A stretch of DNA of 64,000 nucleotides from Branchiostoma floridae (Eukaryota > Chordata > Leptocardii > Amphioxiformes > Branchiostomatidae), in assembly GCF_000003815.2 (NCBI RefSeq), contig NC_049992.1, forward strand, positions 21,444,333 through 21,508,332, in the 5' to 3' direction. The number at the start of each line of letters is the position of its first letter. Position 1 is the first letter of the stretch. Below the pieces are notes generated by a model, which had not been told where the DNA came from, made no database searches, and saw only the letters and a program-made list of their open reading frames with translations. A program made the position numbers and the translations under genes. Shown here one piece after another: positions 1,334 through 64,000 of this stretch.

Positions 1334-4300
1334 CTGGTAAGGACAGTCACACAACAGTCAGCATCAGTACTGTCTGGTCAGGTTTTGACTACATGTACTC
1401 TATCAATTTTAGACCTGATGTTGTCAATGATGAAAAAGATATAGTTTACCTCACCTGATACTATGTATGACTGTCCTGATGTTGTAAATGATGATGTGGC
1501 TACCTCACCTGTTACTATGACAGTCCTGATGTTGTAAATGATGATGTGGTTACCTCACCTGTTACCATGACAGTCCTGATGTTGTAACTGATGATGTGGT
1601 TACCTCACCTGTTACCATGACAGTCCTGATGTTGTAAATGATGATGTGGTTACCTCACCTGTTACCATGACAGTCCTGATGTTGTAAATGATGATGTGGT
1701 TACCTCACCTGTTACCATGACAGTCCTGATGTTGTAAATGATGATGTGGTTACCTCACCTGTTACCATGACAGTCCTGATGCTGTAAATGATGATGTGGT
1801 TACCTTACCTGTTACCATGACAGTCCTGATGTTGTAAATGATGATGTGGTTACCTCACCTGTTACCATGACAGTCCTGATGTTGTAAATGATGATGTGGT
1901 TACCTCACCTGTTACCATGACAGTCCTGATGTTGTAAATGAAAGGTGTGGTTACCTCACCTGTTACCATGACAGTCCTGATGTTGTAAATGATGATGTGG
2001 TTACCTCACCTGTTACCATGACAGTCCTGATGTTGTAAATGATGATGTGGTTACCTCACCTGTTACCATGACAGTCCTGATGTTGTAAATGATGATGTGG
2101 TTACCTCACCTGTTACCATGACAGTCCTGATGCTGTAAATGATGATGTGGTTACCTTACCTGTTACCATGACAGTCCTGATGTTGTAAATGATGATGTGG
2201 TTACCTCACCTGTTACCATGACAGTCCTGATGTTGTAAATGATGATGTGGTTACCTCACCTGTTACCATGACAGTCCTGATGTTGTAAATGATGATGTGG
2301 TTACCTCACCTGTTACCATGACAGTCCTGATGTTGTAAATGATGATGTGGTTACCTCACCTGTTACCATGACAGTCCTGATGTTGGCCTCCCTGAGTTGT
2401 TGGATGGTGGGTGTGGTTTCTGGCTTGAGAGCATTTTGCATAACCATCAGGCCCAGAAATGTTAGGTCAGTCTCAACTTGGTCCCTGTAGTAGAATCATT
2501 AAATTAATACACTGAGGGGATGACATTTATTAAAAACTAAGGTGATGTCTTTGGTGTTGTTTGTTTGTGCGTGTGACGTTAATTGCTTGCTTGCGTAAAT
2601 CATTCTGGATATTTTTGGTCAGCATAACTTACATGTTGTATGAATGGCTGGATGGATTGAAAAGATGTTTGGTATGCGGGTAGGCCTTGAAAAGACGAAA
2701 GTTAAGATCAAGTTTAGGCCCCTAGGTGTGTGAACTTCTTAATGAATTTCAGATTTTTTTTCTGGACATGCTGGTCTCTTTTCATGTAACTTAAGGAAGA
2801 GGTGTATAGATTTCAATTTTGTAATAATTTTGTAATAATTTTGTGAATGAATGCAGTAATTCCTTTGTGCTAAATGGTGGGAATGTGACATGTGTAAGCT
2901 TATCAATTGAAAGTGAATAAGTTAAGAGGAAAGTGGTATTGGTATTCTACCAAATAACTTTGAATTCACACACATCATACAATATTAATATGTGATTTTG
3001 GTAGATTATAACTTAAAATATATCATTCTTATTTGTATGATCACTAAAACAAGATAGAATAATATAAATCTATCATTTCATGGTGGTATACATACATGTA
3101 CACAGTCATACTAGTATTGAGTTGTAGCATTATGTGATCTATTATTCATCAATGTAAACTTGGCACAAAAATTTTGGAATATTGATTTTGGTTGATCATA
3201 TTTCCTTTGTTTCTGCATCAATATCAATGTATCATATATCAATAGAAAGCTTGATTGTGTGATTTCCTTTCAGGTAATCGGTATTTAATCATGATTTAAT
3301 TGAGAACTGCACGTCTTTTAATTGAATTTTAATCACCTGTAGACAGGAACATAATCAAGATCTGTACTGTACAGTTAATCTAAGTACAGCTTCCTTGTTG
3401 AAGTTCCTCAGTTCTTTTACAATGTGCCAAAGTGCAAGTAATGTGAGCTGGTGGTATGACGTCTCTGAACTCTTGCTCACTTCTCAAATTCAAGACGAGA
3501 GGAACATACAGTACAAAGATTTCACATTCAAGTCATTAAACAAAAAAGTTCTGCAATTCAGCTGTACAATAATGTATTCAATGTTCCTCTGAGACAGATA
3601 TTTTTGACCTTCAAGTTGTTGAATGTGTAACCTCCACTATATGTACAATGTACATTTAAAAACTGAGTTTTTCATAATGGGAGGAGGAAAGTCCTACCTT
3701 TGAATTTTCTGTAAATGATGAAACTTGATGCTTGTGTCAAGCATTTTCCAGGCAAAGGCAATGACTCTGAAGCCTTGGAGAGTGTACCTCATCAGAGTGG
3801 TGTGGAAGTCAGGAGGCACTGAGACAGAAAGTGAAGACAGCATTAAATTATATATTATCACTATTAAGATTTAACTTCAAAAAGCACATGAATTTCATTT
3901 TGTACCGATCCTCTTAATCAGAATTTACTAGCCCTACAAGTGTACTATTTGCGTAGTGTCATAGTCTTTATATCATACCTGGGCCGTGAAAATGTTCGAT
4001 ACAGGTTGTTCCGGACTGTGTGATAACTTTCTGTATCACACAGGCTTCGAAGTTGTATCACACAGGCTTCCTTCGAGTAAATTGAACTATTTCGAGCAGG
4101 CCTAGTGTGGCACAGTTGAAAATTTGAACAACGGGTTGGGACGTTAGAATTGCTGTTGTTACACATTTTCTCAACTTCTGGTGCATTTCATATCGAAACA
4201 TGTGTTTTCTTAGGTGAGTATGACATAAATAAGATACAACATGGTGTATTCCGCATCACCCCCGGTCCCGGGCTTGTACCTCGGGTGATACAGAAAACAG

Positions 4301-16300: not shown

Positions 16301-19300
16301 GACATAATGTCTACTTTCCTATCTTCACTGTGCGCTCATTGGTTGATCCTGAATCACATGATTCTCACAACCATATAAGTACAAGGGATGATCACCCTAC
16401 TGCCTCTTGTTGGATCCATCCGCAACGCCGAGGTCGCCTGGCGATGGACGACCAGGTCTCCGCCGCTTGCGGTTCCACGACCGCGTTTCTCGCCGCCGGG
16501 CGGGTTTTGTGCCGGAGGCCGGAGCACACAGTGTTGCAGCCTAGACTCCGGATTACCAGTTGGAGGAAGACAACTTCTGAGGTTCGGCTGTGCAGCAAGT
16601 AACGGCGGGGCGAGGGATCCAGAAGCTCCGGCGGACCTTGGGGCAGACCCTCTCCACGCATCGAAAGGACGGAAGAGTCCTAGTGTTCTACCTAGTGGGG
16701 TGAAATTTCAGGACGGTGGATATACGGCAGGTTTGGGTGGAAAATGCGGTAACATACGTTGTGGTATTTGTCGAATTCTGCTTTTCTGGGAACAATGGTC
16801 TGGGTGCCGTTTGTTCACGTGTTGTTTTGCATATCTTTGGGTCGAGCTTTCGCCCGGTTTGCACGTGCTTTATTTGCATTTGTTTGCTTTTAGTTGACTG
16901 GGTATTTTGTCGATAAGCACACAGTACAGTGAGGCAGCATAGACTCCAGTTTGACAGTTGGAGGAAGACAACTTCTGAGGTTCAGCTGTGCAGCAAGTAA
17001 CGGCGGGGCGATGGAACCAGAAGCTCCGGCAGACCTTGGGCAGACCATCTCCACGTAGCGAAAGGACGGACGAGTCCCACATAGTGGGGGGAAAACTTCA
17101 GGATGGCTGAGATATGGCAGGTTTGGGTGGAAAATGCGGTAACGTACGTTGTTGTATGTGTCGAATTCTGCTTTTCTGGGAACACTCGTTTGGGTGTCGT
17201 TGTTCACGTGTTGTTTTGCATATCTTTGGTGTCGGGTTTTCTCCCGGTTTTTACTGCTTGATTTGCCGCAGTTTGTTTGCCTTAGTTGACTGGGTGGGAA
17301 TTTCATTATCTTTTGTTTGGAACGGAACGTAGGAGGTTTTGTTCTTAGGAAGGGAGGGAAACTCGTGACAGGATCCCCTTTGTGACCACGTGAGGTGTGT
17401 GCCAGCGTGGCGGGTGAATGCTCGAGTTGGGTTTAGCTGCTTTACTGTAGGTTCAGAATTTGTGGTCTGAACGTGTTGTTTTCTTAGCAGCTCAGCCCGG
17501 ATTCCAGCTCTCCCAGGCCGAGGAAGGCGACTACCACAGCGCGACTGAGATGCAGCAAGCTCTGACAGACTTTTGGCGGCCTCTTCACATATTGAAAGGG
17601 CGGAAGAGTCCTACCTGGCGGGTCGAAACGTCGGATGTTAAAGATACGGCAGGTTTGGGGGAAAATGCGGTAACAAACGTTTGTGTTTTTTGTCCAATTA
17701 TGTTTTCCTGGGAACAATGGTTTGGGGTGGCTAATGTGTACACGTGTTGTTTTGCATATCTTTGGTGTCGGGCTTTCGCTCGGTTCGCTCGTGCTTGATT
17801 TTCATTTGCTTTGTCTTTAGTTGATACTTGTGTTCTAAACGTGTTGTTTTCTTAGCAGATCAGCCCGGTTTCCAGCTCTCCTGTGCCGAGGAAGGTGACT
17901 ACCACATCGCGACCGAGGTGCAGCAAGCTGCGACAGAGCGTTGGAGCCAGCAAGCCGAGCATTCCCAACACATATGGCAGTTCTTCGCGGCATCGACACT
18001 AGACGACAGCCGTCACGGAGCGCATGGCTTTGGTTATTTCAGGGAGGCGTGCACGTTTTTGGTGACATCGATTTGAGGCGGGATTCCCCTCAGATATTTT
18101 GTCTTTATGTCTGTTGTTGCTGTTTTGAAGTGTTTGGTTTCCCTCTAATTAGGGATATTTTCTTTTACCGTTGTTGTTTGTAAAGTTTTGCTTGTGTTGA
18201 CACAGTGACGGCGACACAGACCTGGACTATTAAGGAATGCAGTCGTCTAAGGAACCACAGCCTGGCAGCAGCGTTGGCAGTATCTATCGCTGAGGGGAGT
18301 CTCCTTAAATCACGAGGAAAGAAGGTGTGTTTTGGTCCGTTTTGTACTATATTTTGGAGAAAACAGCGCATGTACGGATCGTTCTCGGTCGCTCCTGCTT
18401 GGTGTTTGATGGTTCTTTTATACCGTGAGAACACCGAGTAGCGAGGTCCGGAGAGGTTTCGGGTTGGCGTGTTTTCTTTTCAGCTGGTGAAACGGCGCGC
18501 ATGTGCGGGCCTCTGATCGTTTGTGCTTGGTGTTTGGTGCACTGTTAGTGTGCGATCACTGAGTAACGTTGATCAGAGAGTTTTTCCGCGCATGGCGGGT
18601 GTTTTCATGGGAGTGAAACGGCGCGCATGTGCGGGCCTCCGATCGTTGGTGCTCGGTGTTTGCTGCACTGTTAGTGTGCGATCACTGAGTAGCGTTGATC
18701 GGAGAGTCTTTCCGCACATGGCGGGTGTTTTCACAGAAATGAAACGGCGCGCATGTGCGGGCTTCTGATTGTGCTCGGTGTTTGCTGCACTGTTAGTGTG
18801 CGATCACTGAGTAGCGTTGATCAGAGAGTCTTTCCGTACATGGCGGGTGCTTTCACGGGAATGAAATGGCGCGCATGTGCGGGCTTCTGATTGTACTCGG
18901 TGTTGGCTGCACAGTTAGTGTGCGATCACCGAGTAGCGTTGATCAGAGAGTCTTTCCGCACATGGCGGGTGTTTTTCATAGCCATAGGAATGGAACGGCG
19001 CGCATGGGCGGGCCTCTGATGGTTGGTGCTCGGTGTTTGCTGCACTGTTAGTGTGCAATCACTGAGTAGCGTTGATCAGAGCGTCTTTCCGCACATGGCG
19101 GGTGTTTTCACAGAAATGAAACGACGTGCATGTGCGGGCTTCTGAACGTTGGTGCCCGGTGTTTGTTGCACTGTTAGTGTGCCATCACTGAGTAGCGTTG
19201 ATCAGAGAGTCTTTCCGCACATTGTGGGTGTTTTCACAGAAATGAATCGACGTGCATGTGCGGACTTCTGATCGTTGGTACTTGGTGTTTGTTGCACTGT

Positions 19301-22300
19301 TAGTGTGCGATCACTGAGTAGCGTTGATCGGAGAGTCTTTCCGCGCATGGCGGGGGTTTTCACAGAAATGAAACGGTGCGCATGTGCGGGCTTCTGATTG
19401 TGCTCGGTGTTTGTTGCACTGTTAGTGTGCGATCACTGAGTAGCGTTGATCAGAGAGTTTTTCCGCACATGGTGGGTGTTTTCACAGGAATGAAACGACG
19501 TGCATGTGCGGGCTTCTGACTGTACTCGGTGTTGGCTGCATAGTTAGTGTGCGATCATTGAGTAGCGTTGATCGGAGAGTCTTTCCGCACATGGCGGGGG
19601 TTTTCACAGAAATGAAACGGTGCGCATGTGCGGGCTTCTGATTGTGCTCGGTGTTTGTTGCACTGTTAGTGTGCGATCACTGAGTAGCGTTGATCAGAGA
19701 GTCTTTCCGCACATGGCGGGTGTTTTCACAGGAATGAAACGGCGCGTATGGGCGGGCCTCCGATTGTGCTCGGTGTTTGTTGCACTGTTACTGTGTGCGA
19801 TCACTGAGTAGCGTTGATCGGAGAGTCTTTCCGCATATGGCGGCTGTTTTCACAGGAATGAAGCGACGCGCATGTGCGAGCCTCTAATTGTTGGTGCTCG
19901 GTGTTTGCTGCACTGTTAGGGTGCGATCACTGAGTAGCGTTGATCAGAGAGTCTTTCCGCACATTGTGGGTGTTTTCACAGGAATGAAATGGCGTGTATG
20001 TGCGGGCTTCCGATTGTGCTTGGTGTTTGTTGCACTGTTAGTGTGCGATCAATGAGTAAAGTTGGTCAGAGTCTTTCAGCGCATGCCGGGTGTTTTCATA
20101 GGGGTGAAATGGCGCGCATGGGCGGGCCTCTGGTCATTTGTGCTCGGTGTTTGTTGCACTGTTAGGGTGCGATTACTGAGTAGCGTTGATCAGAGAGTTT
20201 TCCCGCGAATGGCAGGTGTGTTCATAGGGAAAAAAGGGCATGCAGGTGGCAGGTGAGGGCCTCTGATCGTTTGTGCTTGGTGTTTCTTGCACTGTTAGTG
20301 TGCGATCACTGAGTAGCGGTGCCGTTGGTCAGAGAGTATTTCCGCACTTGGCGGGTGTTTTGACAAGAAGAAAAGGGAACGCATGTTTGGGCCGCTGATC
20401 GGCTGTGCTCAGTGTTTGCTGCATGGTTATTGTGAGTTCACTGAGTGGCGTTGTTCAGAGAGTCTTTCCGCACGTGGCGGGTGTTTCCAGAGTCCGGAAA
20501 GAAAATGGCACGCATGTGCGGGCCACTGATTGTTTGTGCTTGGTGTTTGCTGCTCTGTTAGTATGCGATCACTGAGTAGCGTTGATCAGAGAGTTTTTCC
20601 GCGCATGACGGGTGTTTCATAGGAAGAAGATGTCATGCGAGTTTCTAGATCTGGTCGTTTGTGCTTGGTATTGGCTGCACGGTTGATAGTGTGCAATTGC
20701 TGAGTAGCGTTGGTCAGAGAGTCTGATCGCACACGGCGGGTGTTTTCACAGGGAGAAAATGGTACGCGTGTGCGTGCTGCTGATGGTGCTGGGCGCTGGC
20801 TGCATTGTTAGTGGGTGCTTAGTGGGACTCATAGGAGTAGCGTGAGTCAGAGAGTCTGCGTCCTTTGCACATAGCGGGCGTTTTCACAGAAAGGAAATGG
20901 CGCGCATGTGTGGGTTTCTGGTCGTTCGTGCGTCGTGTTTGCTGCACTCAGTGTTAGTGTGCGATCACTGCGTGACTAGTGGCGGTCAGGGAGCCTCTAA
21001 TCGCGTACGATGGGAGTTTCATGCTGGGAAACGGCACTCGTGTATTGGGGTCCAGTGGTTTGGGCTGGGATGTTTGTGGTCACTCTAAAGTGGTTAAAGA
21101 CGGAGTACCGGTGAATAAAGAATCTTTGTACATGGTGCGTTTGCATCCTGGCGAAGGAATCAGCGCGCATGTGCGGGCCTCGAGTTATTCGTGCCTGGTG
21201 ATTGCTGGCACCGTGAGGGTGCAAAACTGAGTTTGGTGGCAGAGTGTCTCCCTGCAGAGGACGGTGGTTCATGGCGAGAATATGGCAGGTTTTGTGGGAA
21301 AGGGAGTAGACGTATGTGTCATAATACNNNNNNNNNNNNNNNNNNNNNNNNNNNNNNNNNNNNNNNNNNNNNNNNNNNNNNNNNNNNNNNNNNNNNNNNN
21401 NNNNNNNNNNNNNNNNNNNNNNNNNNNGATTTTGGGCCTCCTAGTGCTTGAACTTGATACTGTATAGGTTGACCCTGTTTTTGTGTGGTTGGGGCATCCT
21501 CCCAATATCTGCTTGGTTTTAAAAACAGATTATGGTTGGGTGTAGAACCATCATCTGGCCTGGGCCACCTTCAATGTATCAGGTTACTTAGTGGCACTGA
21601 CAGTTTGCCAGATGACGGGAGTGTACAAGATTATATATCTGTTGGTCAGGTATAATTGGAGTTTGCTTATTACTCTTTGTGGTGTTTCTAGAGCTGTATA
21701 GTACTGAGTTTTAAGTTTCGGTACAAGTTCCTTTACCCTGTTGGCAATCATGGTTGAACTTGAACTTAAACAGAAGAAGATGCAATTTTCTAATGTGGAG
21801 GAGAACTGTATAGAGTGTGGGCATAAGAGAAAGGTATGTGTATGATTTGTCCTGTGTTTCTTTTTGTTTCTTTGGTAATGCCATTTCCATACTGTAAACA
21901 GGTAATTTGTTGTTTTGGGCTAGTCATATTCGCTTGGTTTTTGGGCCTGCTTAATCTATGGTACAGGCAGGGTTAAGTGGTGGAGGCTTAGCTTGGTTCT
22001 GTTTTAAATTCAGTATCGTTTGTTGCATTTTGTCGCGGCAAATATATGATGAAATTCCCCTTCTAAGCAACTGCTCATTGGTTTGCGGGGATGTTTGCTG
22101 GGTGTTTGCTCTGACTACAACAGCTTCTGAACTTTTCAAAGCTTCCGTTGCCAGCAGCTTGCCATCTATAAATGGGATTGACAAGGACATTTTTCATAGT
22201 AAATTATGCTGTTAAATTTGGCTTAGATACTACAGGAGATTTAGGTTTGGGTTGGATGGATTGAATGAAAATATCATACCACCCTGGGGACTAACTGTTG

Positions 22301-47500: not shown

Positions 47501-50500
47501 CTATAGCCGGCCACATTATCCCGTCNNNNNNNNNNNNNNNNNNNNNNNNNNNNNNNNNNNNNNNNNNNNNNNNNNNNNNNNNNNNNNNNNNNNNNNNNNN
47601 NNNNNNNNNNNNNNNNNNNNNNNNNCTGGTGGAATGTCTTTGATCTTGTCTGTGGAGTTGAAGTCCCAGACCTGCAGGGCGCTGTCCTTACGCCACGACC
47701 CCGTCAGCACGTGGTTGTGCTCGGGGTCGATGTCCAGCCCCTCCCCACAGATGTGTGGGCCAAAAATCTTCCTGTTAAACCAAGATGTCAAGTTTCATGT
47801 GTTAAGGCACTTTCATGGTAATAACTAGAGTTTGGTGATCTCATACCTCCATGAATATTTAGAGCTTTTGTTAATTTCATGCAAATGACTTAACATTATA
47901 ATAACATGATTTATGCATGGTGTTGTTCATCATTGAATAATGTACAGTACACATGTCACAAGTAAAATTCCCAATTCAGATCATTAATCATTAAGTTGTT
48001 TTGCAATCTTTGCATAAATTATGCAAATAAGTTCCTCATTTGCATACTTCATATCTGCATATGTTTCACCGATTACAATTAACAAGTGCTACATTTATCA
48101 AAGTCCAGTTATTGCAAACAATGGAATTATACAATTTCCTCATTAATTATGCAAATTAAGTCCTCATTTGCATAAAATGCATATCAGTATGAACATCTTT
48201 GCCCAAGCTACCTGCATATCTAAAATGCAGGCAATCCATCGTTCCTTTCTGCAGTTATCCTTTGGAGTGTCTTGACAAAAACGCCCCTGCAGTTCCACAA
48301 TTAAATGTTAGGGGACTGAAACTTGCCCCACTTTGTCATAATGCTAAAAGGTATCTACCACCCAGATGTCTTGACCATATCACGTCCGGGACAAGAGATA
48401 CAACGAAAAAACTGCTATGATAGAATATTTTCATTAATTATGCAAATGTATTCCTTATTTGCATAATTAGTATCTTATCTTGTACAACATTGTCTAAGGT
48501 ACCTACATACCAAAAATCATGCAAATCCGTTGTTCCCTTCTTGAGTTATCCTCGTCAGAAGTTTTTGACTAAAATGCCCGTTATCCCAAAACTAAATGCT
48601 AGGGGCCCAAACTTATGTCATTTCTTCCTGAGCACAAGAGCTATCTGATACTCAAAAATCGTGACCATAGCATGTTCAGAACACTGAGATAGCAAACCCG
48701 GAAGTTGCGCTGCAGTACCAATGAAAGCCGCTAGGGAGCCCAAAATCTAGTCATATCTAGCTTTTGTCAAACACTACCAACACACCAAGTATGAAACCAA
48801 TTCACCCTGCCGTTCTTNNNNNNNNNNNNNNNNNNNNNNNNNNNNNNNNNNNNNNNNNNNNNNNNNNNNNNNNNNNNNNNNNNNNNNNNNNNNNNNNNNN
48901 NNNNNNNNNNNNNNNNNNNNNNNNNNNNNNNNNNNNNNNNNNNNNNNNNNNNNNNNNNNNNNNNNNNNNNNNNNNNNNNNNNNNNNNNNNNNNNNNNNNN
49001 NNNNNNNNNNNNNNNNNNNNNNNNNNNNNNNNNNNNNNNNNNNNNNNNNNNNNNNNNNNNNNNNNNNNNNNNNNNNNNNNNNNNNNNNNNNNNNNNNNNN
49101 NNNNNNNNNNNNNNNNNNNNNNNNNNNNNNNNNNNNNNNNNNNNNNNNNNNNNNNNNNNNNNNNNNNNNNNNNNNNNNNNNNNNNNNNNNNNNNNNNNNN
49201 NNNNNNNNNNNNNNNNNNNNNNNNNNNNNNNNNNNNNNNNNNNNNNNNNNNNNNNNNATCAGAAGGTCTTCATACTTACATGTAGACATCAGAAGGTGTA
49301 CATACTTACATGTAGACATCAGAAGGTGCACATACTTACATGTAGCCATCAGAAGGTCTTCATACTTACATGTAGACAATTCAGAAGGTGTACATACTTA
49401 CATGTAGACATCAGAAGGTGTACATACTTACATGTAGACATCAGAAGGTGTACATACTTACATGTAGACATCAGAAGGTGCACATACTTACATGTAGACA
49501 TCAGAAGGTGTACATACTTACATGTAGCCATCAGAAGGTGTACATACTTACATGTAGACATCAGAAGGTGTACATACTTACATGTAGACATCAGAAGGTG
49601 TACATACTTCCATGTAGCCATCAGAAGGTGTATATACTTCCATGTAGCCATCAGAAGGTGTACATACTTACATGTAGACATCAGAAGGTGTACATACTTC
49701 CATGTAGCCATCAGAAGGTGTACATACTTCCATGTAGCCATCAGAAGGTGTACATACTTACATGTAGACATCAGAAGGTGTACATACTTACATGTAGACA
49801 TCAGAAGGTGTACATCATAACTTACATGTAACGATCATGCAGAAGGTGCACATACTTACATGTAGCCATCAGGTGTACATACTCACATGTAGCCATTAGA
49901 ACAGGGCTCTAGCCAGCGTCCGTTTTTCCGTCAATTGACGGAAATTTGCTGCGTCTGACGGAATAATTCTAAAACCAATCCGTCAACCTTGACGGACAAA
50001 AGTCCTTGGTGGAAACTACAGGCGGCTTGGGGGCACCGTCCACTGCCGTAAAAGCCACACACTGTTTGTTTTGCTATTGTGATGTTTGTTGACAACGTGT
50101 GTCGGCGCCCTTTTGCATACGATAATCTCATTAAAACCCGTTTTTCAAGGTCTCAGTTTAGTCCTTCTAATTAATTTTCGCGGTTTTCGTGACGATTGTA
50201 ATTGGCTGACGGAAAAAAGTTCGAGCTGGCTAAAGCCCTGCATTAGAAGGTGTACATACTCACATGTAGCCATCAGAAGGTCTTCATACTTCCATGTAGA
50301 CATCAGAAGGTGTACATACTTACATGTAGACATCAGAAGGTGTACATACTTCCATGTAGCCATCAGAAGGTGTACATACTTACATGTAGACATCAGAAGG
50401 TGTACATACTTCCATGTAGCCATCAGAAGGTGTACATACTTACATGTAGACATCAGAAGGTGGTCATACTTACATGTAGACATCAGAAGGTGCACATACT

Positions 50501-53500
50501 TCCATGTAGCCATCAGAAGGTGTACATACTTACATGTGCATCAGAAGGTGTCNNNNNNNNNNNNNNNNNNNNNNNNNNNNNNNNNNNNNNNNNNNNNNNN
50601 NNNNNNNNNNNNNNNNNNNNNNNNNNNNNNNNNNNNNNNNNNNNNNNNNNNNCATGCATATCATTATGAACATCTTTGCCCAAGCTACCCGCATGCCTAA
50701 TATGATACCAATCCCTCAATCCTTTCTGCAGTTATCCTCTTTGGAATGTCTTGACAAAAACGCCCCTGCAGTACCAAAATTAAATGTTAGGGGGCTGAAA
50801 CCTACCCCACTTTGTCATGACACTGAAAGCTATCCATCACTTAAATGTGAAGACCATAGCATGTCTGGACCAAGAGATACATAGAAAAAACTGATAGGAT
50901 AGAATATCCTCATTAATTATGTTAATTCACTCCTATTTTGCATAATCTGTATTTTATCCTGTACAACATTGTCTAAGGTACCTATATACCAAAAATCACG
51001 AAATCTGTTGTCCCCTTCTTGAGTTATCGTCTTCAGAAGTTTTTGACAAAAGTGCCCCTGCTATCCCAGAACTAGCCGCTAGGGGGCCCAAACTTATGTC
51101 ACTTCTTCCTGAGCACAAGAGCTGTCTAACACGCAAAAATCGTGACCATAGCATGTTCAGAACACCGAGATAGCAAAACCGGAAGTTGCCCTGCAGTACC
51201 AAGGGGAGTCGCTAGGGGGCCCAAAATCTAATCATTTCCAGCTTTCATCACATACTACCAACACACCAAGAATGAAACCAATCCACCCAACCGTTCTTGA
51301 GTTATCTTGTTTACACACAGACACACACACAAACGCAGGGTAAAATATAACCTCCATGACATTTCATGGAGGTAAATATAACCTCCATGACATTTCATGG
51401 AGGTAACTACAGTAACTATTCACAAGACTTTGATGTCACATAAGAAAAACAACTTACCTCACTGAATGCTTCACCCTTGAATCCCAGAACTGTAAAAAAA
51501 AGAGGAATTTCAGCAAAGAAACAGAGTTTTAAGCTAGACCTGGTGCTGCAGATGCCTTTTGGGCATATATCATCACCATAATGTGGTGCTACTGATATCT
51601 AATGCAGTAACCCAATGTCATCTACATTCCATTCAACTAGAGTTCCACAACCCCATACCTTTGCTAACTGATCTTAACCTTTGCAACTTTAACAATCAAA
51701 TTGAATATTCTTCTCTTTCAGTTACAAACGTTACATGTTGCAATAGTCTTCTAACAGAGCAGTGCAAATTAGAATCCGATTTGGATGATTGGACTTAACT
51801 ATATGAGCATTGCTTAAGCTATCTACATACAAAAATCATGAAGATCTGTCAACCCTTCTCGAGTTACTGTAAATGCAGAAACTTTTGCGGTGGTTTAATG
51901 TTCGTGTTTTTCGCAGTGGCCACTTCACCGAAAACTCAAAACCACCGCGAACATTTTTCCATGGCAGTAAGAGACTATAGTGTATGGTGCTACCGAGAAA
52001 TTAAAACCTCTACGAAAAGTCCATTTTCCCGCTACCGCGAAATCAAATCCCCGCGAACTTAAATGTATTTATAGTATTCCCTTTCAAGTCTGACAGGTAA
52101 CCAGCCCCTGCTGTTCTAAAACAAGCCGCTAGGGTGCCCCAACCTATACCAGTTACTCTCGGCCTCAAAAGCTGTCTACCACTCAAAAATCATAGCCACG
52201 TAGCATGTCCAGAAATCGAGATATCAGTTCCGTTGCAGTACCGTAACAAGCTGCTAGGGGCTGATCAAGACGTACCCACACACCGAATATCAATACATTT
52301 ATCCATTGCAATAAATGATTAAATTAATACTGTTAATCAGCCAGTCAAGTAAAAGTTGGAGTGAGGTGTGTCTAACCTGGATGGTATCATCCCATCCACC
52401 ACTCAGAAACACACCGGGGTAGGCTACAGCATTAGGATGGTACAGAACACTGAACACTCGCAACATGTGTCCGTCCATAACCGTCTTGTCTGGACTACAA
52501 AAAAATCACATAGGAATGGTTAGAGATCTACATTTACCCTGCATTCAGAAGGAAATCTGCCATTACAAGTACACCTATCCAAACCTGTAGATTCATCTAC
52601 TGTACATCAATCAAACCCCAAAATAACCCCAGCAGGGGCAAAGTAGAGGGGAGGAGAAAGGGGAGATCATGGGCGGTGAACATGGTAAAACACTGACCTG
52701 GGTTCAAAGGTTCGGACCATCTTTTTGGTGGCAGTGTCATACATGTGCAGCTGTGCAGAGGCGCCACCTGTCACGAACACATCGCCGTGTGGGGAGAAAC
52801 TAGCAGTCAGAGTCTGTCTGTTCTCGTGGATGGTGTGGAGGCACGACCCCGACGATGGGTGCCAGAACTTTATCACACCATTGGCATCTGACATGCAACA
52901 AGAACAGTTGTTGTCACATACATGTAGCTATCAGGTGTACACAATGTACTTACATGTAGCCATTAGAAGGTGTACATACTTACATGTAGCCATCAGAAGG
53001 TGTACATACTTACATGTAGCCATCAGAAGATGTACATACTTACATGTAGACATCAGAAGGTGTACATACTTACATGTAGCCATCAGAAGGTGTACATACT
53101 TACATGTAGACATCAGAAGGTGTACATACTTACATGTAGCCATCAGAAGGTGTACATACTTACATGTAGACATCAGAAGGTCACCCTCACACTCAGGGTT
53201 GACATCGCGGCAAAGCCTAACGATATCACCCCTGACAAATCAGCCAGGGTATTTGGGTATTTGGCTTCTTGTTGTCGGAAGCTCGGAAAGGCGCCATATA
53301 AGGTGTACATACTTACATGTAGCCATTAGAAGGTGTTCATACTTACATGTAGACATCAGAAGGTGCACATACTTACATGTAGCCATCACAAGGTGTACAT
53401 ACTTACATGTAGCCATTAGAAGGTGTTCATACTTACATGTAGCCATTAGAAGGTGTTCATACTTCTGTCCATGGTCAGCGGGTATGAAGGCCAGACTAGT

Positions 53501-56500
53501 GCAGGGGAGGTGGGCATCACGAACCTCCTGGTCAGTCAGGTGGTACAGGACTGACCCATCATGAGCCTGAAAGATCTGAATAACAGCATGTCCATCAGAA
53601 TGTGCAGACTCATGTAATGTAACTGCATGGTATTTGGAACTTAAGGGTCCTGGGTAAAATCCTGTCGTCCTACCAATCTTCTAGTACAACTAAATATCAA
53701 TGCACTNNNNNNNNNNNNNNNNNNNNNNNNNNNNNNNNNNNNNNNNNNNNNNNNNNNNNNNNNNNNNNNNNNNNNNNNNNNNNNNNNNNNNNNNNNNNNN
53801 NNNNNNATGAGAGGATGGGGCAATACAGGCAGGGACATACTTCGGGACTGACACGGCTCTGATAAGTGTGGGTTTGGAAACAGGCAGTAGAAGTTGCAGG
53901 CATGCTGATCTCTACAGTCACAACAACACACCTAATTTTTGTAAAAAAAAAATATTTTTCAATCTGCAGCTTTCCTTGCTGGCCACATAAAATGAGGCTG
54001 TGTCTGTGTTTAGTGCTTGGGACAGGCGTCAACAAAACAAATATGCAGCCAGTGGATTTTCTGACCACCTACGCTACATCAGGGTTTGGGTTTGGCTAAA
54101 ATCAAACACAGCTTGAACAAATTTCTTCATAAAGTGTAATATACATTTATTATGATTTTAAAACTGTGTTGCAAGCATGAAATCTAATCCAGTTTCCATC
54201 ACGTTCCTGGCTCTTTCTGAACACGAGCCGAGCCCACACAACATCTAAGGTAAAAACCTTTACCTTAACAGCTCCATGAACAAGTCCAGCGGCCACCAAT
54301 GTCCCATCATAGCTGTACTTCACACACAGGACATTCTCATGGCCACAGTCACTGAAACATAACAACACACCATCAGCCTAACATTAGCTGTACGTCATAC
54401 ACAGGACATTCTCATGGCCACAGTCACTGAAACGTAACAACACACCATCAGCCTAACATTAGCTGTACTTCACACACAGGACATTCTCATGGCCACAGTC
54501 ACTGAAACATAACAACACACCATCAGCCTAACATAAGCTGTACTTCACACACAGGACATTCTCATGGCCACAGTCACTGAAACATAACAACACACCATCA
54601 GCACTTCACACACAGGACATTCTCATGGCCACAGTCACTGAAACGTAACAACACACCATCAGCCTAACATTAGCTGTATGTCACACACAGGACATTCTCA
54701 TGGCCACAGTCACAGAAACATAACAACACACCATCAGCCTAACATAAGCTGTACTTCACACACAGGACATTCTCATGGCCACAGTCACTGAAACATAACA
54801 ACACACCATCAGCCTAACATAAGCTGTACTTCACACACAGGACATTCTCATGGCCACAGTCACTGAAACATAACAACACACCATCAGCCTAACATTAGCT
54901 GTACGTCACACACAGGACATTCTCATGGCCACAGTCACTGAAACATAACAACACACCATCAGCCTAACATTAGCTGTACGTCACACACAGGACATTCTCA
55001 TGGCCACAGTCACTGAAACATAACAACACACCATCAGCCTAACATTAGCTGTACGTCACACACAGGACATTCTCATGGCCACAGTCACTGAAACATAACA
55101 ACACACCATCAGCCTAACATTAGCTGTACGTCACACACAGGACATTCTCATGGCCACAGTCACTGAAACATAACAACACACCATCAGCCTAACATACATG
55201 TAAGCTGTACTTCACACACAGGACATTCTCATGGCCACAGTCACTGAAACATAACAACACACCATCAGCCTAACATACATGTAAGCTGTACTTCACACAC
55301 AGGACATTCTCATGGCCACAGTCACTGAAACGTAACAACACACCATCAGCCTAACATTAGCTGTACGTCACACACAGGACATTCTCATGGCCACAGTCAC
55401 AGAAACATAACAACACACCATCAGCCTAACATAAGCTGTACTTCACACACAGGACATTCTCATGGCCACAGTCACTGAAACATAACAACACACCATCAGC
55501 CTAACATAAGCTGTACTTCACACACAGGACATTCTCATGGCCACAGTCACTGAAACATAACAACACACCATCAGCCTAACATAAGCTGTACTTCACACAC
55601 AGGACATTCTCATGGCCACAGTCACTGAAACATAACAACACACCATCAGCCTAACATAAGCTGTACTTCACACACAGGACATTCTCATGGCCACAGTCAC
55701 TGAAACATAACAACACACCATCAGCCTAACATTAGCTGTACTTCACACACAGGACATTCTCATGGCCACAGTCACTGAAACATAACAACACACCATCAGC
55801 CTAACATTAGCTGTACGTCACACACAGGACATTCTCATGGCCACAGTCACTGAAACATAACAACACACCATCAGCCTAACATTAGCTGTACGTCACACAC
55901 AGGACATTCTCATGGCCACAGTCACTGAAACATAACAACACACCATCAGCCTAACATTAGCTGTACGTCACACACAGGACATTCTCATGGCCACAGTCAC
56001 TGAAACATAACAACACACCATCAGCCTAACATTAGCTGTACTTCACACACAGGACATTCTCATGGCCACAGTCACAGAAACATAACAACACACCATCAGC
56101 CTAACATAAGCTGTACTTCACACACAGGACATTCTCATGGCCACAGTCACTGAAACATAACAACACACCATCAGCCTAAGGCACGATCTAGACACATTTT
56201 TTCCAGACATCCGTGAGCCTACAACCTCTCGCCGACAGCTTTTTTTCAGTGTCTAGATGGAACTGCAATATCGCCATAAAGATATCGGCAAAATTTCTCC
56301 TGAAAGGTCTGGAGCATTCGCCCGATAGCTTGTCAGGGGTCCCCGATAGCTTAGCAGGGGTCCCCGACAGATTCCGCACACGTGTAGATGTGTCCCGACT
56401 TCGGGAGGGCTTATTAGTCTATATAGCTTTTTTTGTATTAGAAAATTTTTTACACATATTCACTTCCCTTTTTTTTTGAAGACAGAATTTTCACAATAAT

Positions 56501-60560: not shown

Positions 60561-63500
60561 TAGAGAGCGGGCAACTAAGATTAAAGTGACGCACAGATTT
60601 AACAGACATCACAGCGTTGCCATTAAGTTGACAGATGCGATCGGGAGAAAGACGGGGCGAGTTTGCCATTCTATTGACCCAATTAAACAATAAACTAAAC
60701 ATACAACTTCGACCAAACTCCTTCTGTTCTAACCGAAGTGTATCCGCTACGTAGTCTACGTGACAAATTCAACAGACAGCAAAGCATGATGACGACAGGG
60801 TGCCATAAAGTTAACATATGCGGTCAGAAGGAAGTCAGGGCGGGTTTTCCACTCTATTGTCCTATAAACTAAAACACAACTTCAACCAAACTCCTTCTGT
60901 TTACACCGGAGTACCTATGCTACATATTACTAGTCTCAAATTTAGCAGACATCAAGGCGTGATGACGTCAGAGTACCATAAAGTTGACATATGCGGTCAG
61001 AAAGAAGTCGTGGCGGATTTTCCACACTATTGACCTAATTAAAAAAATCATACACAATAAACTTAACATACAACTTCAACCAAACTCCTTCTGTTTACAC
61101 CGAAGTGCCTATGCTATATATTACTAGTCCCAATTTAACAGATATCAAAGCCTGATGACGTCAGGGTGCCATAAAGTTGACATATGCGGTCAGAAGGAAG
61201 TCAAGGCGGGTTTTCCACCCTATTGTCCTAATTAAAAGATTAATACACAATAAACTAAACATACAACTTCGACCAAACTCTTTCTGTTTACAATGAATTG
61301 TCTCCGCTACGTATAACTAGTCTTACATTTAACAGACATCAAGGCGTGATGACGTCAGAGTGCAATAAACTTGACATATGCGGTCAGAAGGAAGTCAATG
61401 CGGGTTTTCCACACTATTGTCCTATTGGAAAAATTTATACACAATAAACTAAACATACAACTTTAACCAAAATCCTTCTGTTTACACCCAAGTGCCTCAG
61501 CTACATATGGCTAGTTTCAAATTTTACAGACATCAAGGCGTGATGACGTCAGAGTACCATAAAGTTGACATAAGCGGTCAGAAAGAGGACTGGGCGGGTT
61601 TTCCACACTATTGACCTAATTAAAAGATTCATAGACAATAAACTAAACATACAACTTCAACCAAAATCCTTCTGTTCACACCCAAGTGCCTCAGCTACAT
61701 ATGGCTAGCTTCAAATTTTACAGACATCAAGGCGTGATGACGTCAGAGTACCATAAAGTTGACATAAGCGGTCAGAAAGAGGACTGGGCGGGTTTTCCAC
61801 ACTATTGACCTAATTAAAAGATTCATAGACAATAAACTAAACATACAGCTTCAACCAAACTCCGTCTGTTTACACCCATGTGCCTCCGCTACATATTTCA
61901 AGTCTCAAATTTAACAGACATCATGGCGTGATGACGTCAGAGTGCCATAAAATTGACATATGCAGTGAGAAGGAAGTCAGGGCGGGTTTTCCACTATATT
62001 GTCCTAATTAAAAAATCATACACAATTAACTTAACATACAACTTCAACCAAACTCCTTCTGTTTACATCGAAGTGCCTATGCTACATATTACTAGTCTTA
62101 AATTTAACAGACATCAAAGCATGATGACGTCAGGGTGCCATAAAATTGACTAAAACTGTCGTAATTGAATAAAACTGTCGTAATGGAAAAAAATTCATAC
62201 ACAATAAACTAAACATACAACTTCGACCAATCTCAGTCTGTTAACACCAGAGTATCTCCGCTACACATTACTAGTCTCAAATTTAACAGACATCAAGGCG
62301 TGTTGACGTCAGAGTGCCATAAAGTTGACATGTGCGGTGAGAAGGAAGTCAGGGCGGGTTTTCCACTATATTGTCCTAATTAAAAGATTAATACACAATT
62401 AACTAAATATACAACTTCGACCAAACTCTTTCTGTTCACATTGGATTGTCTCCGCTACATATTTACTTGTCTCAAATTTAACAGACCATCAAGGCGTGAT
62501 GACGTCAGAGTACCATAAAGTTGACATATGCGGTCAGAAAGAAGTCGTGGCGGATACACAATAAACTAAACATACAACTTCAACCAAACTCCTTCTGTTT
62601 ACACCGAAGTGCCTATGCAATATATTACAAATGTACTAGTCTCAAATTTAACAGACAGCAAAGCATGATGACGTCAGGGTGCCATAAAGTTGACATATGC
62701 GGTCAGAAGAAAATCAGGGCAGGTTTTCCACTATATTGTCCTAATTTTAAAAAATCATATACAATAAACTAAACATACAACTTCAACCAAACGCTTTCTA
62801 TTCACATTGGATTGTCTCCGCTACGTATTACTAGTCTCAAATTTAACAGACATCATGGCGTGATGACGTCAGAGTACCATAAAGTCAGGGGAAATCCGCT
62901 ATCTCCTATCTCCTAGACTAGAGGCGATAATTAACCCAAGCTGGTCTATGTTCGACGCTGAGGCCCGGGTTCGCCAGATGGCCTCCCGTGGGGTAGAGCG
63001 ATTAGCAAGCCTTTTGCCTGTCATAGAGTTAATCGAGCGTGTAATGTGAGTAAACACAGCGGTCAGAAGGAAGTCATGGCGGGTTTTCCACTCTATTGTC
63101 GTAATGGAAAAAAATTCATACACAATAAACTAAACATACAACTTCGACGAAACTCAGTCTGTTAACACCAGAGTATATCCGCTACATATTACTAGTCTCA
63201 AATTTAACAGACATCAAGGCGTTTTGACGTCAGAGTGCCATAAAGTTGACATGTGCGGTGAGAAGGAAGTCATGGCGGGTTTTCCACTATATTGTCCTAA
63301 TTAAAAGATTCATACACAATAAACTAAACATACAACTTCGACCAAACTCTTTCTGTTCACATACGATTGTCTCCGCTACATATTACTTGTCTCAAATTTA
63401 ACAGACATCAAGGCGTGATGACGTCAGAGTACCATAAAGTTGACCAAGGAGGTTGAGTTGACATATGCGGTCAGAAAGAAGTCGTGGCGGATTTTCCACA

Positions 63501-64000
63501 CTATTGACCTAATTAAAAAAAATCATACACAATAAACTAAACATACAACTTCAACCAAACTCCTTCTGCTTACACCGAAGTGCCTATGCTATATATTACT
63601 TGTCTCAAATTTAACAGACATCAAAGCCTGATGACGTCAGGGTGCCATAAAGTTGACATATCCGGTCAAAAGTAAGTCAGGGTGGGTTTTCCACTATATT
63701 GTCGAAATGAAAAAAAAATTATAGTCAATAAAATAAACATACAACTTCAACCAAAATCTGTTTGTTCACATTGGAGTACCTCTGCTGAGTAAAACTAGTC
63801 TCAAATTTAACAGACATCAAGGCGTGATGACGTCAGAGTGCCATAAAGTTGACAGGTGCGGTCAAAAGGAAGTCAGGGCGGGTTTTCCACTATATTGTCG
63901 AAATGAAAAAAAATTATAGACAATAAACTAAACATTCAACTTCAACCAAACTCTGTTTGTTCACATTGGATTACCTCTGCTGAGTAAAACTAGTCTCAAA
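60560..64000. repeat. 194-bp satellite with a CRE palindrome per unit
   Basis: At least 17 head-to-tail units of about 194 bp (169-196) continuing past the right edge. Unit landmarks are AACTTCAACCAAACTCCTTC, CTGTTTACAC, ACTAGTCTCAAATTTAACAG, ACATCAAGGCGTGATGACGT, CAGAGT.CCATAAAGTTGAC, ATATGCGGTCAGAAGGAAGT and GCGGGTTTTCCAC. TGACGTCA is intact in about 15 units. One unit is interrupted at 62885-63055 by an unrelated GC-richer segment. Confidence 0.96.

Follow-up and report, generated by a model that had tools for sequence, protein, structure and literature searches.

Minisatellites that cross an exon/intron boundary, termed mirages, were described earlier in amphioxus (PMC3087553), and two papers state, citing reverse transcription-polymerase chain reaction (RT-PCR), that regular splicing is left undisturbed by them (PMC3087553, PMC3902484). 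In the present study we analysed 64,000 nucleotides of Branchiostoma floridae DNA (contig NC_049992.1, here C14, positions 21,444,333 to 21,508,332; the whole stretch is called the window and coordinates refer to it), in which exon 3 of a minus-strand WD40 gene ends inside a tandem array of 30-bp units that repeats its splice donor. This exon-3 array is a member of the known amphioxus repeat class. We propose, with a probability of roughly 85%, that it is a mirage-type minisatellite which stays silent while the exon-proximal donor is used, and that its period and open frame are by-products. What is new here is the scale, namely a genome-wide excess of arrays built on the donor consensus; a published genome-wide count of such arrays was not recognised in our partial library, and one may exist elsewhere.

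The globin genes BflGb6 and BflGb9 carry mirages with units of 150-160 and 157 bp, present in few copies whose number differs by haplotype (PMC3087553). They share with the exon-3 array a tandem duplication across the boundary, in donor-side and acceptor-side forms, and the retention of splice signals in many units; unlike them, the exon-3 array has a 30-bp period and 13 near copies, is in frame and is open. The repeats of lancelet PGBD5 are comparable in that they lie at a splice boundary and that the exon-3 period, too, is divisible by three, although at 60 and 108 bp they are longer, imperfect and fewer (2-7 copies, differing between assemblies); a predicted insertion of 57 residues was considered and then omitted for want of RNA support, and troponin C is cited as a further case (PMC3902484). 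For the Adh3 mirage the same sources quote short units of 10-72 bp, splice-boundary repeats and an absence of aberrant mRNA (PMC3087553, PMC3902484). The exon-3 array resembles it in having short units at a splice boundary, in a different gene. Canestro et al., in 2002, reportedly showed somatic instability of the Adh3 mirage. Splice signals are likewise copied in the model of intron creation by internal tandem duplication (PMC3087553); in contrast to that model, the intron after exon 3 pre-exists and none is newly created. Gain of an intron by this route was also considered for the present locus and rejected, as exon 4 is preceded by an ordinary acceptor and opens with sequence that is unrelated.

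Exon 3 ends within the unit GAACACCTTCTAATGGCTACAT/GTAAGTAT (the slash marks the exon/intron boundary), whose 22 exonic bases are the last 22 of the exon and whose remaining 8 bases are intronic, so that the tandem unit crosses the boundary as in a mirage. Exact copies of the donor ACAT/GTAAGTAT stand at 53437, 53407, 53377, 53347 and 53317 of the minus strand (donors 1 to 5), exactly as the initial annotation had reported; its further statements, that the period is a multiple of three, that the first five units are free of stops and that their joins to the next exon remain in frame, are confirmed. Joined to exon 4, each of donors 2-5 keeps the frame and would add between 10 and 40 residues without a stop, which is the stop-free, frame-keeping spacing looked for in tandem 5' splice-site isoforms. 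The stop near 53240 that had been said to limit this extension to 40 residues is found at 53240-53242, inside a 123-bp element splitting the array (Table 1). The element, for which the genome listing of 41 matches includes 29 further full-length ones, is probably mobile. Eight more units follow, giving 13 near units in total, and GTAAGT is present in 13 of 13. Tandem Repeats Finder (TRF) assigns 17.2 copies and a score of 477 to 52947-53464, and the array is therefore not due to chance.

The WD40 assignment comes from a query joined from the exons, which matches PF00400 in Pfam (E 7.9e-16) and has in WDR5 its best solved relatives (PDB, E 1.5e-16). A genome search returned five matches, all within the WD40 gene, and hence no paralogue in its own genome. 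When the donor-1 product, in which exon 3 is joined to exon 4, is compared with strands b and c of WDR5, the junction is passed without a ten-residue insertion; donors 2-5 would place CKYxHLLMAT repeats into the turn between these two WDR5-like strands. Judging from this fit to WD40 homologues, the authentic boundary is the copy adjoining exon 3, and donor 1 is presumably the one normally used. The predicted pairing energy with U1 is -7.9 kcal/mol for all five donors, and the four other donors of the gene range from -6.8 to -10.7 kcal/mol.

Two further splice-site arrays are found in the window, an acceptor array in the same WD40 gene and a donor array in an ATP13A2-like gene. The dinucleotides of the former are 22 AG and 3 TG; all of the 24 upstream acceptors lead to a stop within 12-17 codons, and only the last acceptor, at 54351, is open. 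The second gene codes for a P5B ATPase (match to PDB 8iem, E 2.1e-23), and its donor 1 joins VMVTG to DNMLTAV, the restored VTGDN stretch aligning to human ATP13A2. An in-frame stop in the first spare unit is included by all 17 later donors (the joins were printed for 7 of the 17). Because the spare copies of both arrays reach stops, only the exon-proximal copy allows a full-length product, and neither array can consist of protein modules. If both genes make full-length protein, splicing would skip 24 and 17 spare sites, respectively, as argued from coding need.

The whole genome (513 Mb, 431 contigs) was scanned for three copies of a motif in a row, the counts being matches and not independent events since one array yields many. 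The donor consensus ACAGGTGAGT gave 154 matches against 0 for its reversed form, CAGGTAAGT 30 against 0 in the control (nine loci) and CCAGGTGAGT 12 against 0 in the control (five loci). AGGTRAGT gave 508 against 111 reversed, the latter being by eye nearly all simple repeats with about 8 loci otherwise (100 of the 111 places listed); the first 100 true places, which cover C1-C3 only, correspond to 21 loci, two of them simple repeats. A donor-dead sibling motif, ACAGGTGWCT, more permissive than ACAGGTGAGT, produced 14 matches at four loci. For several motifs, the donor-consensus arrays greatly outnumber their controls. As separate observations, seven places in C7:17949685-18078746 carry one 32-bp donor array and are perhaps a paralogous gene cluster that inherited it, and L020 (C2:5277763-5280830) is an open, proline-rich 30-bp coding repeat containing GTAAGT, which indicates that the motif alone is not proof of a donor.

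Outside the window we inspected 34 loci, comprising 20 from the AGGTRAGT scan, 8 from CAGGTAAGT and 6 of the 13 loci that the GTAAGTAT scan returned outside the WD40 gene. For 18 of these loci the peptide preceding the array was compared with Pfam or the PDB, the others having no reading frame judged worth submitting. At 10 of the 34 loci (18 queried) an exon end was recognisable in the array at E <= 0.001, the matches being to TMEM18, dynein heavy chain, the dynein motor domain AAA_7, TALPID3, a BAR domain, a Na/Ca exchanger, CHD1, condensin subunit 3, DNA-PKcs and S-adenosylmethionine decarboxylase. The BAR match (L058, E 2.5e-4) falls under Pfam's own cut-off yet is among the ten counted. 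In 8 of these 10 the peptide reaches the first listed donor; at the CHD1 locus (L059) the exon end lies two imperfect units ahead of the first listed copy, and at the DNA-PKcs locus (L074) it lies inside a compound array in a view of the sequence that excludes the array start. Resemblances of L064 to KLHL3 (E 0.75) and of L067 to a furin-like protein (E 0.18) were too weak to count. In L027 (C14:14013381-14016468), 18 copies of GTAAGTAT spaced 40 bp apart come after a TMEM18-like exon.

The interpretation of the exon-3 array as a silent mirage starts from what is observed directly, that is the anatomy, the identical donors, the frame, the two sibling arrays and the genome-wide excess of donor-consensus arrays. 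A tandem duplication would have started across the exon-3 donor, taking 22 exonic and 8 intronic bases, and would then have grown into the intron, every added copy bringing its own donor. With a donor in each copy, use of the exon-proximal one would remove the rest together with the intron and make expansion nearly silent; the period of 30 bp and the open frame would then be by-products of a short and mostly exonic unit, and silence through splicing may explain how such arrays survive. In favour of this interpretation are the composition of the unit as an exon end plus a donor, the fit of WD40 homologues to the donor-1 product, the need of the sibling arrays for the exon-proximal copy, the donor-motif arrays above controls, the exon ends recognised at 10 of 34 loci, and published mirages that are alike in kind. 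Several results weigh against it. The exact motif GTAAGTAT, three times in a row, is not over-represented in the whole genome (51 matches against 48 reversed), and the tandem acceptor motif TTTTGCAG x3 has just 34 against 18 in the control. The reversed controls of AGGTRAGT are mostly simple repeats, so that the ratio of 508 to 111 compares unlike things. Finally, the five exon-3 donors are identical and equal in U1 energy, and donor sequence itself thus gives copy 1 no advantage.

Further copies of the 30-bp unit lie downstream in the WD40 gene as assembled, and they may be an intronic offshoot or another allele of the exon-3 array. The assembly contig that holds them (49258-50552) is flanked by N at 48818-49257 and 50553-50652, which makes its placement in the gene uncertain. 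We regard it as quite possible, leaning slightly the other way, that these copies (49258-50551) are the exon-3 array of the other haplotype misplaced in the assembly, and that no separate intronic array exists: the contig is gapped on both sides and contains little beyond the 30-bp units and one insert, and the length of mirages differs between haplotypes in the published cases (PMC3087553), although the assembly does put the contig inside the WD40 gene. Copy-number variation could be viewed in one assembly only, in which this gap-flanked contig with the exon-3 unit is possibly the other allele. Two long open frames, of 161 and 131 residues, cross the downstream stretch. Of the 40 matches listed for the 338-bp insert (1581 first-look candidates, 40 scored), 39 are others, with identities of 94-96%, and we take the insert to be hAT-like from the form of its ends.

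It is also possible, though we rather doubt it, that splicing at the exon-3 array is leaky without any function, donors 2-5 being used as low-level noise and the in-frame products being tolerated as the unit repeats a blade strand. Identical donors 30 bases apart, the first four spare ones leading to no stop that would trigger decay, speak for such leakage; aberrant mRNA, however, is not reported in the published cases (PMC3902484). A wider proposal, which we consider unlikely, is that splice donors seed or shelter minisatellites throughout the genome, spliceosomal removal nearly silencing them, and that the number of exon-3 units could leak through into the length of the protein. Were it true, the exon-3 array would be a rare in-frame and stop-free case, and the leak would appear as a 30-nt ladder.

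The initial annotation had gone further and read the array as an encoder of variable protein length, donors 2-5 being chosen by regulation or copy number to insert 10-40 residues between WD40-blade strands. Its coding potential, meaning the frame and the openness, stands; the function is not supported, and we find it very unlikely. In addition to the frame, the openness and the five identical donors, it could draw on GTAAGT in all 13 near units, as against GT in 23 of the 31 downstream units. Selection for donor retention is nevertheless not claimed, the difference between 13/13 near and 23/31 downstream units being not significant (Fisher p = 0.08). No stop in the exon frame occurs in 39 units (the 13 near ones and 26 of the 31 downstream, five irregular ones being omitted), and 26 of these 39 lie in the downstream stretch, beyond the reach of any in-frame extension. 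In the five reachable units, a small sample, departures from the consensus fall 5/3/4 on codon positions 1/2/3, with no third-position excess or synonymous bias; together with the equal openness of unreachable copies this leaves no sign of selection on the added residues. Among the donor arrays of the genome, 11 of 45 have a period divisible by three (7 of 35 for AGGTRAGT, 4 of 10 for GTAAGTAT; p = 0.27), indicating neither preference nor avoidance; the periods were taken manually from the coordinates and strings of the matches after dropping irregular and simple-repeat arrays, the seven C7 places were taken as one family, and the exon-3, 50-bp and 75-bp arrays were left out. Taken together, the 0/39 stops, the 5/3/4 differences and the 11/45 periods make the open in-frame state what would be expected from a 30-base unit that is short and mostly exonic. 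Further points against an encoder are that the spare copies of the sibling arrays reach stops, that the insertion would fall where WDR5 homologues have no ten-residue insertion, and that regular splicing is given for amphioxus mirages in the literature (PMC3087553, PMC3902484). A protein of variable length is possible on sequence grounds, its support being the open frame. Least probable, indeed hardly credible, is a purely conjectural role without isoforms in which intronic donor-like sites bind the U1 small nuclear ribonucleoprotein and guard the pre-mRNA from premature cleavage, since it would leave the acceptor array of the WD40 gene to a separate explanation, even though near copies 1-12 carry eight contiguous bases complementary to U1 and the 13th seven.

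Taken by itself, the WD40 gene shows nothing unusual for the lineage, and it is the broader pattern of donor-bearing minisatellites that deserves to be followed. In this gene about 25 near-identical acceptors precede one exon and 5-13 identical donors come after the next, which lends itself naturally to testing how the spliceosome chooses among equals. Should mirages be as frequent as the motif counts indicate, many replicates with varied periods, phases and copy numbers would be available in amphioxus. In-frame mirages are where mis-splicing would show in protein instead of being removed by decay. An anecdote from few genes would thereby become a question answerable by long-read RNA.

Table 1. 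Features of the window discussed in the text
Feature	Position	Strand	Evidence or remarks
Exon 2 of the WD40 gene	54264..54351	(-)	entry via exon-proximal (last) acceptor; aligns to WDR5
Exon 3 of the WD40 gene	53437..53575	(-)	open frame, phase; aligns to WDR5
Exon 4 of the WD40 gene	52698..52887	(-)	phase +1; finishes WD40 strand (Y-ANGVIKFW)
Four spare in-frame units, donors 53407/53377/53347/53317	53317..53436	(-)	exact donor recurrence, frame
123-bp repeated element splitting the donor array, with in-frame stop 53240-53242	53180..53302	(-)	genome matches
Remaining eight units of the donor array, beyond the 123-bp element, GTAAGT in all	52947..53179	(-)	TRF
Array of 25 acceptors upstream of WD40-gene exon 2, mostly 75-bp units	54310..56179	(-)	TRF, acceptor joins
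Donor array of the ATP13A2-like gene, 18 donors CAG/GTRAGG, 50-bp units (one spacing 51)	1467..2385	(-)	authentic donor after 2360
Further 30-bp unit copies, 31 unit cores, GT kept in 23 and replaced by GG in 8	49258..50551	(-)	downstream intron as assembled
Insert of 338 bp, presumably hAT-like, splitting the downstream array	49903..50240	(-)	8-bp target duplication TTCTAATG, ends CAGGGCTYTAGCCAGC

Other repeats were also noted in the window. An intron of the WD40 gene holds, at 51343-51406, a 31-bp unit in two copies, the unit being almost identical to its reverse complement, and other large arrays occupy 18488-20970, with 122-bp units, and 60864-63965, with units of about 194 bp.

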